A DNA stretch of 64,000 nt from Hymenobacter latericoloratus (GTDB lineage Bacteria > Bacteroidota > Bacteroidia > Cytophagales > Hymenobacteraceae). The stretch lies in assembly GCF_014199535.1 (NCBI RefSeq), contig NZ_JACHNV010000003.1, forward strand, positions 559,289-623,288, given 5' to 3'. Position 1 is the first letter of the stretch. Every line of letters starts with the position of its first letter. Positions 34,193-50,759 of the stretch are shown here, in pieces. A model generated the notes under the pieces. The model was not told where the DNA came from and made no database searches. It saw only the letters and a program-made list of their open reading frames with translations. Made by a program: the position numbers and the translations under genes.

Positions 34193-35044
34193 TCAGGCAA
34201 TCATCTTCTCAATCGGCAGCACCAGAATACCCTCGGCACCTACAGCTTTCAGCTGCCCGGTAATGTGCCAGAAATCATCCTCATTGATAACGGACTGCAC
34301 CGACACCCAGCCTTCCTCGGCCAGCTTGGTCACGGTGGGCGACTTGATACCGGGTAGCAAGGCTTTCACCGCATCCAGCGAGGCCACCGGAGCGTTCAGC
34401 AGAATGTACTTGTTGCGGCGGGCCCGGCGCACGGCCTGCATCCGGAACTGTAGCTGCTCCAGCAGCTCCTTTTTCTCGGCGCTCAACTGCTGGTTGGCAA
34501 TCAGCACGGCTTCGGAGCGAAACACGGTTTCTACTTCCCGCAGCCCGTTGCCTAGCAGCGTAGAGCCGCTGCTCACAATATCACAGATAGCCTCGGCCAG
34601 CCCGATGCTGGGGGCAATTTCTACCGAACCGCTAATGGTATGCAGGTTGGCCGTTACGCCCCGCTCCTGCAGGTAGCTACCCAGAATGCGGGGGTAGGAC
34701 GTGGCAATGTTCTTACCCGAGAGGTCAGCCACGGAGTCGTAGCCGGCAGCGCGGGGCACGGCCAGGCTCAGGCGGCACTTGCTGAAACCAAGCCCTTCGA
34801 TTTCCAGTTGGGGTAGGCCGGCTTCCACTAGCACGTTTTGCCCCACAATGCCCAGGTCGGCCACGCCATCCTGCACGTAGCCGGGAATATCGTCGTCGCG
34901 GAGGTAGAGGATTTCGAGGGGGAAGTTGGTGGCTTCGGTTTTCAGCTTGTACGAGGAGCTGAGGAAGCTGATACCGCACTCCCGAATCAGGTTCAGGGAG
35001 TCTTCGCTAAGGCGGCCCGATTTCTGGATGGCCAGACGGAGCAT
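34193..35044 (-). CDS. hisG: ATP phosphoribosyltransferase, long form
   Basis: 283 residues. Commits PRPP and ATP to histidine synthesis. The catalytic domain begins LRLAIQKSGRLSEDSLNL and contains DDIPGYVQDGVADLGIVG and the PRPP loop region near EAICDIVSSGSTLLGNGL. The last ~75 residues form the ACT-like regulatory domain of the long HisG, so it should be feedback-inhibited by histidine and not need HisZ. It is the first structural gene of the operon, 192 bases after the end of the His-rich leader ORF. Confidence 0.97.
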   Translation of the reverse strand: MLRLAIQKSGRLSEDSLNLIRECGISFLSSSYKLKTEATNFPLEILYLRDDDIPGYVQDGVADLGIVGQNVLVEAGLPQLEIEGLGFSKCRLSLAVPRAAGYDSVADLSGKNIATSYPRILGSYLQERGVTANLHTISGSVEIAPSIGLAEAICDIVSSGSTLLGNGLREVETVFRSEAVLIANQQLSAEKKELLEQLQFRMQAVRRARRNKYILLNAPVASLDAVKALLPGIKSPTVTKLAEEGWVSVQSVINEDDFWHITGQLKAVGAEGILVLPIEKMIA

Positions 35045-35236
35045 ATGGTTAAGTTAAGGGGTGGGACGAAGAACCGACCGCAAGGCAGTTCCTCGTTGTA
35101 CTTCAGTAAGATTCGGGAGGGAGTCGGGACCCAGGTCGTCGGGAAACGGCAATACACTGCCGGGGCCACCAGTTTGCGGGGGCCGGGGAACCAAGTGCGG
35201 TTCGCCCAACGGGGTCAATATGATGCGTGCATTCCT
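35045..35236 (-). promoter_or_regulatory. Putative attenuator region of the his operon
   Basis: Transcribed leader between the leader-peptide stop and hisG. Candidate structures on the minus strand: CATTCCTC/GAGGAATG (35230-35251), which includes two His codons and the leader stop; GAACC/GGTTC with GGG/CCC further on; and CGGCA/TGCCG (35147-35162) followed by TTTCCC. I do not see a canonical long T-run, so control could be Rho- or translation-linked instead of a simple intrinsic terminator. Confidence 0.55.
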
Positions 35237-35362
35237 CTAGAAAGAGGAATGATGCCCGTGATGATGATGGTGCTGCTGCGACGCGCTGGACCCGGCCCGG
35301 CGGCCCAGGGAGCGGGCGGCCACAGTACGGCAAGGGGTCAGAAACAACGCGGAGAAAAGCAT
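35237..35362 (-). CDS. hisL: His operon leader peptide, 41 residues with seven His codons near the end
   Basis: Short ORF starting MLFSALFLTPCRTV and ending QQHHHHHGHHSSF, then TAG. Five consecutive His codons (35258-35272), one Gly, then two more His (35249-35254). Seven His in eight codons, just before a hairpin that overlaps the stop, is the signature of a leader peptide that senses charged tRNA-His by ribosome stalling. It starts 22 bases after an exact TAnnTTTG box and sits 192 bases upstream of hisG on the same strand. An upstream in-frame start (35425) precedes the promoter box and is rejected. Confidence 0.8.
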   Translation of the reverse strand: MLFSALFLTPCRTVAARSLGRRAGSSASQQHHHHHGHHSSF

Positions 35363-35383
35363 ACGGGGCTGGTAGTAGCGGAA

Positions 35384-35391
35384 CAAATGTA
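35384..35391 (-). promoter_or_regulatory. -7 element of the his operon promoter
   Basis: TACATTTG on the minus strand, an exact TAnnTTTG. Transcription would start about 35377, leaving some 15 bases before the leader ATG. A clear -33 TTTG is not present; TTTTC lies at a slightly long spacing. Confidence 0.6.
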
Positions 35392-50684: not shown

Positions 50685-50759
50685 TCATTCCGAGCTTAAG
50701 TGAGGAATCTGGGTTAGCCTCTCGTGAGTAACCCAGATTCCTCGCTCCGCTCTGGATGA
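50685..50759. repeat. REP-like palindrome, second copy
   Basis: Outer ends TCATTCCGAGC and GCTCTGGATGA with inner arms GAGGAATCTGGGTTA / TAACCCAGATTCCTC. Related in its ends to the palindrome at 28814-28906 but with different inner arms. It begins one base from the preceding terminator and ends five bases from the TonB gene stop. Confidence 0.8.

Follow-up and report, generated by a model that had tools for sequence, protein, structure and literature searches.

Introduction

In enterobacteria the his operon is controlled by an attenuator (hisL; RF00514) in which hisG is preceded by a leader peptide encoded with consecutive His codons, a shortage of histidine is sensed by ribosome stalling, and a hairpin covers the place where the leader frame ends. 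The his and trp leaders of E. coli also contain hairpin-stabilised polymerase pauses. This sensing by ribosome stalling is described in a study of his control in Firmicutes (PMC9413887), and a survey of bacterial leader genes that includes Bacteroidetes (PMC4833913) names, in the sections consulted, gamma-proteobacteria and some Firmicutes for his attenuation, but not Bacteroidetes. Long 5' UTRs with short ORFs reminiscent of leader peptides have been described in Bacteroides thetaiotaomicron (PMC7366714), in a report whose main text contains neither 'hisG' nor 'histidine'. Closest in phylum and gene is Flavobacterium psychrophilum, for which the consulted parts of PMC9723704 give strong clues that amino-acid operons are attenuated through leader peptides, and list ahead of hisG a structured 5' element that also occurs in other Flavobacteriaceae genera and has no Rfam hits.

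The present study concerns the his leader in a 64,000-nt stretch of the Hymenobacter latericoloratus genome, referred to here as the window. A sequence-only reading had proposed a classic-type attenuator in a Bacteroidota; the leader is confirmed below, but leader-peptide attenuation in this phylum is, on the consulted part of PMC9723704, already reported and not new as such. For the form of leader carried by Hymenobacter and Pontibacter, no description was found in the open-access literature, to which the search was mostly confined, subscription papers lying largely outside its scope.

Results

The his operon and its leader ORF

The window carries a his operon, hisGDCBHAF with a bifunctional hisB, on the minus strand from 35044 down to 28035. 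All seven genes match NCBIfam models above the curated cut-off, and Hymenobacter sediminis ELS1360 has an identical hisG protein. The features at the 5' end of the operon are as follows.

35384–35391, minus strand: exact TAnnTTTG box, TACATTTG, 29 nt 5' of the leader ATG
35237–35362, minus strand: leader peptide ORF of 41 codons, MLFSALFLTPCRTVAARSLGRRAGSSASQQHHHHHGHHSSF, with ATG at 35362 and TAG at 35239–35237, ending HHHHHGHHSSF before the stop
35249–35272, minus strand: regulatory His codons, five at 35272–35258, then Gly at 35257–35255 and two at 35254–35249
34193–35044, minus strand: hisG, ATG at 35044, followed by hisD, hisC, bifunctional hisB, hisH, hisA and hisF

We take TACATTTG to be a Bacteroidota-type -7 box, matching the TAnnTTTG consensus. 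The box, the 41-codon ORF ending in five His, Gly and two His (7 His in 8 codons), and its distance of about 190 bases from hisG were all as the sequence-only reading had given them. The leader peptide matches no NCBIfam or Pfam family, and a search of the window at gathering score gave no match to Rfam RF00514 (His_leader) or to the T-box models, the sole Rfam match being one tRNA. A short ORF in which codons for the amino acid made by the operon stand in a run, one of the traits of leader-peptide attenuators, is found directly before the operon.

Conservation of the His leader

The best 80 of at least 563 hisG relatives, from Hymenobacter, Solirubrum, Pontibacter, Rufibacter and Adhaeribacter, were compared. 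Every one of the 80 carries, ahead of hisG, a His-rich ORF that starts with ATG and has 3 to 8 His within ten codons, so that the His-run leader proposed for the window is indeed present in related genomes; an exact TAnnTTTG box lies 14–33 nt before the leader ATG in 70 of these best 80, and the other 10 have no exact box there. Sub-groups (Hym-A, 27 loci; Hym-B1, 10; Hym-B2, 6; Hym-C, 3; Pontibacter, 27; Rufibacter, 4; Adhaeribacter, 3) were drawn from genus and leader ends, not from a phylogeny, and all statistics given here ignore kinship. In the runs of Hym-A and Pontibacter both His codons are in use (CAT 221, CAC 80), and most non-His residues of the peptide vary among relatives. The distance from first to last His is 7 codons in 19 of 27 Hym-A loci, and the first His of the cluster stands 5–8 codons ahead of the last in 53 of the 54 Hym-A and Pontibacter loci.

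A wider sample comprised 80 further upstream regions, picked from Bacteroidota genomes with a hisG match, in which a His leader was called when an ATG-started frame held at least 3 His in 8 codons. Such leaders were found in 46 of the 80 regions, with at least 5 His in 29. The reverse strands of the same regions gave 2/80 and 0/80, and their mononucleotide shuffles gave 53/1600 and 0/1600, for the two levels respectively. Another 40 Cytophagales contributed 5 leaders, for a running total of 51/120, and most Cytophagales families among these 40 have no His leader. The His leader is widespread but patchy, and the His run of the window is more than chance.

Some Adhaeribacter and Rufibacter loci have a second TAnnTTTG box (TATCTTTG) right 5' of hisG, at -24/-25 in L077, L091 and L095 and at -45/-46 in L092, L096 and L097, which could by-pass the attenuator.

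Hairpins and ruler in the leader RNA

Among Cytophagales the window's leader belongs to a class whose predicted order of elements is a hairpin at the leader stop (P1), 14–16 nt of variable sequence, the motif CAUAUNG, two back-to-back hairpins and, some 21 nt short of hisG, a final hairpin. In the following list, pairing counts refer to an alignment of 28 sequences, the window and 27 Hym-A relatives.

35231–35250, minus strand: hairpin P1, AUUCCUC-UUUCUA-GAGGAAU, with the stop codon (35239–35237) at the border of loop and 3' arm
35216–35231, minus strand: ruler of 15 nt between the final A of GAGGAA in P1 (35232) and the G that ends CAUAUUG (35222–35216); candidate polymerase pause at 35217/35216
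35185–35207, minus strand: hairpin B:C, GGGCGAACC / GGUUCCCC; 91.8% of cells paired, two-sided changes at 5 of 8 pairs in some sequences
35164–35184, minus strand: hairpin D:E, GGCCCCC / GGUGGCC; 93.3% of cells paired, 2 of 7 pairs changed on both sides
35148–35161, minus strand: weak hairpin H4, GGCA / UGCC, followed by GUUUCCC; 58.0% of cells paired
35066–35096, minus strand: last hairpin H5, ACGAGGAACUGCC..GGUCGGUUCUUCGU, with 21 nt between its 3' foot and the hisG ATG and with no U tail (CCCACCCC)

P1 encloses the TAG, as expected of the stop-codon hairpin described in the sequence-only reading. It is nearly invariant (98.0% of cells paired), and because it hardly varies, covariation offers no proof of it. 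It is, however, retained where the stop codon falls 3' of P1 (L048, L053, L075 and L091), and in L117 its arms differ yet match (AUUCUCC/GGAGAAU), both of which suggest that the RNA hairpin, and not the peptide, is under selection. RNAalifold predicts a further helix, P0 (ACGG/CCGU), around P1; it is nearly invariant and no counterpart was seen in Pontibacter.

The ruler was examined in 66 loci (Hym-A 27, Pontibacter 27, Rufibacter 4, other families 8). Among the 59 that bear the motif, the spacing is 15 nt in 53 and 14–16 nt in every one. Across 52 loci of Hym-A and Pontibacter, identity between the two groups is 39% in the spacer (eight positions) against 83% in CATATNG. The ruler also occurs in two other families (L117 and L248, families f9 and f19); four loci (L126, L128, L247 and L250) have P1 without CATAT. 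Within the genus, the P1–CATAT pattern is found exactly once per genome in 33 of 61 genomes (reversed control, 0/61), and in all 22 pattern-bearing genomes with a listed hisG position it lies directly upstream of hisG. The Hym-B members of the genus have another arrangement. Because the spacing between a hairpin and a conserved site is constant, the ruler is read as a putative hairpin-stabilised pause. It might mark something other than a pause, since the base preceding the G of CATATNG is A in 14 of 52 loci, contrary to the E. coli pause consensus.

Downstream, D:E abuts B:C with 0 nt between them, and in the window D:E has one C.U mismatch. Set against 500 shuffles, the whole structure is higher in cells paired, in cells changed on both sides and in covariation score (0/500 reach each), and in pairs changed on both sides (6/500), with no excess in further pair types (414/500 reach the value); in cells paired and covariation score it also beats all six slid versions of itself. 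The best local hairpin before hisG (H5) has its foot at -16 to -28 in 25 of 28 Hym-A sequences, with a mean z of -2.7, compared with 10/28 and -0.95 for other window ORFs, whose starts were assigned mechanically; the z values come from 8 mononucleotide shuffles per sequence and are rough. H5 sequences are very different among Hym-A members, and the window and L031 differ by two compensating pairs. In several relatives the 3' arm of H5 is part of a short dispersed repeat, and H5 may have originated from a repeat; in the window's genome the H5 stretch is single-copy.

Some further elements may be recorded here. The short dispersed repeat of Hymenobacter, AATTCTTANTTNCTAATTC, has up to 8 sites per genome, sometimes as inverted pairs, with 7 in the window's genome (G000) and others in 25 more of the 61 genus genomes; it supplies the 3' arm and tail of the last pre-hisG hairpin in several species. 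By eye, a small alternative A:B (GCCCCC/GGGU) can be drawn ahead of B:C in several groups. Pairing of an upstream GGCCGGG with CCGGCCC was considered and dropped, being GC-rich and weak. Far from the his operon, at 50699–50746 on the plus strand, the window has a 48-nt hairpin of almost perfect pairing (-33 kcal/mol), which ends 9 nt ahead of an ORF that starts at 50756.

Leaders with U-run terminators in other Bacteroidota and in the trp operon of Hymenobacter

A U-run terminator was called when a hairpin of -8 kcal/mol or lower, between leader and hisG, had at least 5 T in the next six bases. By this rule, 33 of the 51 wider Bacteroidota His leaders have one (e.g., L134, ACCCGUUUGAG..UCAAACGGGU-UUUUU), L117 being counted as canonical but doubtful. 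The threshold misses weak AT-rich hairpins, as seen by eye in L155 and L156, so the 18 of 51 left as non-canonical are an upper limit. In the 33, the 5' arm of the terminator pairs with its own leader-stop region at a mean of -10.06 kcal/mol, and with permuted partners at -7.15 (0/5000), and in 30 of them this pairing stops no more than 9 nt from the stop-codon end (15 nt in L149, 16 in L179 and 24 in L117). A ribosome at the stop codon would then cover an antiterminator-like arm. This own-arm pairing, together with the U-run terminators, makes classic His attenuation very likely in much of the phylum. In three leaders of family f40 (L166, L172 and L178, Bacteroidota), a His-rich ORF precedes hisG and, by eye, no clear P1-like stop hairpin or U-run terminator was seen; they are possibly another variant.

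A trp leader with WWW precedes trpE in 12 of 13 Hymenobacter genomes, including that of the window (L192, G000:C2 near 893010; the others are L191, L193–L200, L202 and L203). In these leaders, with peptides such as MTFSMTQQAWWWPYGNSGRDSMCVR, a GC-rich hairpin is followed by at least 6 T in 8 in 11 of 12, the twelfth, L203, having five T. Each of the six displayed has a TAnnTTTG box farther upstream, and trpE begins 102–145 nt downstream in five of these six, those with a start found. Since the genus has U-run terminators for trp, their lack in the his leader is not due to high G+C. In one Hymenobacter genome, a short Ile/Val/Leu-rich ORF (L210, MRPFLLPVISVVIIPILAG, near 1245–1305) lies upstream of ilvD and is perhaps a branched-chain leader.

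Control of the step before hisG

The sequence-only reading had found no canonical T-run terminator in the window's leader and suspected a differing downstream step. Both points are borne out: a terminator scan around the leader gave 0 sites, and from the leader stop to hisG the T runs reach 3 bases at most and no hairpin with a U-run was found, although 33 of the 51 wider His leaders and the trp leaders of the same genus have such terminators. As for the alternative pairings that it proposed to look for, no mutually exclusive helix with convincing covariation was found over the whole leader in Hym-A or Pontibacter. Of the elements of a classic attenuator that were sought, neither an intrinsic terminator nor an antiterminator helix was found in the window's leader. 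A score for folding at different ribosome positions (downstream pairing when stalled and at the stop) was discarded because it was noisy and did not separate classic from non-classic leaders.

The alternative that survives best is Rho-dependent termination, by which the ribosome would leave at the leader stop, Rho would load on the C-rich RNA before hisG, and a stalled ribosome would alter its access. This was among the options raised from the sequence alone, and the genome does have a Rho gene (L254, a 747-aa open frame matching a 415-position model). The last 110 nt before hisG have an excess of C over G, with a median for the best 60 nt of 0.22 in Hym-A compared with 0.08 in Hym-B and Hym-C (Mann-Whitney p 2e-6, a value that ignores kinship), and the Hym-A mean of 0.25 compares with 0.10 (sd 0.11) upstream of 23 other window ORFs. 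However, an equal C excess (0.23) precedes trpE, a gene that has a terminator, and therefore the C content gives Rho no positive support. Moreover, an upstream stall alone would not bar Rho, so an additional switch would be needed. A purely Rho-based account is possible, but we incline against it.

A fully classic attenuator would require that H4 or H5, with a pyrimidine-rich tail, act as a weak intrinsic terminator and that an antiterminator has been overlooked. Relatives offer some encouragement: a loose scan (5 T in 8) flags hairpins of -8 kcal/mol or lower in 15 of 27 Hym-A loci, at varying positions, the H5 tail has 4–6 T in 8 in 14 of 28 Hym-A sequences, and two of three Adhaeribacter loci (L077 and L091) have a hairpin with a U-rich tail. 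In the window itself, however, the H5 tail has 0 T in 8, and mean T counts in the eight bases after the Hym-A hairpins are 1.21 for P1, 0.32 for B:C and 0.68 for D:E. For 27 of the 28 Hym-A sequences, pairing of the leader-stop region with the H5 5' arm is no stronger than with shuffled versions of that arm (mean p 0.51); a value below 0.05 is reached by the window alone (p 0.01). Hym-B has a candidate four-arm arrangement with partly U-rich tails, but covariation of its arms 3:4 is not beyond shuffles. Its acceptance as a proven four-arm switch was also rejected on arms 2:3, where 92.7% of cells are paired and no pair is changed on both sides; the inner hairpin has two pairs so changed. A fully classic attenuator in the window is unlikely.

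Translational attenuation, with the hisG start masked by structure unless a ribosome stalls at the His codons, had also been put forward from the sequence alone, and it appears quite improbable. The leader UUCCAU of family f19 can pair with the hisG start AUGGAA, and H5 lies 21 nt before that start. But leader and hisG start pair at the level of permuted partners (p 0.28, 86 loci), and the base-pairing seen in f19 folds between the leader's His region and the hisG start was set aside because permuted partners do as well. The predicted access to the hisG start is slightly raised by stalling in Hym-B1 (0.55, compared with 0.47 at the stop and 0.45 without a ribosome), but in Hym-A it is 0.62 and in Pontibacter 0.58 whether the ribosome is stalled, at the stop or absent. 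These predictions are against translational control of hisG in the window's group, for which it is not supported.

That the ORF has no part in translation-based regulation, and either encodes a small metal-binding protein rich in His or arose by chance, is scarcely credible, since nothing beyond composition favours it, while conservation is confined to the RNA elements and the His run as the rest of the peptide varies widely, and the ORF, which has no family match, stands directly before hisG in all of the best 80 of at least 563 relatives.

Discussion

The element in the window is likely to be a ribosome-mediated, histidine-sensing his attenuator with a U-less and probably factor-assisted stop of transcription, the stop step being put forward with clearly less confidence than the whole. 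Conservation strongly supports the first half of the enterobacterial logic that had been proposed for this locus: a shortage of His is very probably sensed by ribosome stalling. The second half finds no such counterpart, as neither a U-run nor an antiterminator was found, and the output step, the stop before hisG, probably differs from the textbook.

In the preferred attenuation model, RNA polymerase would pause at CAUAU(U)G with P1 behind it, allowing the ribosome to catch up. The ribosome footprint was used to place the stalled ribosome relative to P1. With charged tRNA-His present, the ribosome would enter P1 and finish at the stop codon, where P1 would be melted, and most transcripts would end before hisG. 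With tRNA-His short, it would stall on the earliest His codons, some 7 codons ahead of the last, its edge just short of P1; P1 would stay folded and transcription would reach hisG. Premature termination would take place within the 190 nt before hisG, with the help of Rho or a pausing factor, of the hairpins B:C, D:E and H5, which lack U tails, or of both. Since no mutually exclusive helix was found, what P1 switches is left unexplained by this model.

It is a reasonable, if still tentative, proposal that these leaders form a distinct class of attenuator in at least three Cytophagales families, in which a stop-codon hairpin and a 15-nt ruler would set a pause and a factor would read the state of the hairpin, without a U-run terminator or a classic antiterminator. 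Attenuation and transcription-translation coupling have been little studied in Bacteroidota. The 15-nt ruler amounts to a precise prediction of a programmed pause, and a single genome whose trp leader has a U-run while its his leader lacks it provides a matched pair for the study of control without the textbook off-switch.

Comparison with known systems

Like the enterobacterial his attenuator, the window has a leader peptide with a His-codon run before hisG and would sense by ribosome stalling, but it does not match RF00514, has a Bacteroidota-type box, and neither a U-run terminator nor an antiterminator was found. The structured element of F. psychrophilum, in the same phylum and before the same gene, is comparable by its description in the consulted part of PMC9723704, not by sequence. 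The 33 wider Bacteroidota His leaders have U-run terminators and, on average, antiterminator-like stop arms, whereas the window's class has neither and is marked by P1 and its ruler to CAUAUNG. The Hymenobacter trp leader, from the same genus and genome, shares the upstream TAnnTTTG box and a run of regulatory codons (WWW), but has the GC-rich hairpin and U-run that the his leader lacks. As with the pause hairpins of E. coli his and trp, a hairpin sits where the leader frame ends and is separated by a constant spacing from a candidate pause; in the window's class that pause is predicted, and is placed 15 ± 1 nt from the GAGGAA arm, at CAUAUNG.
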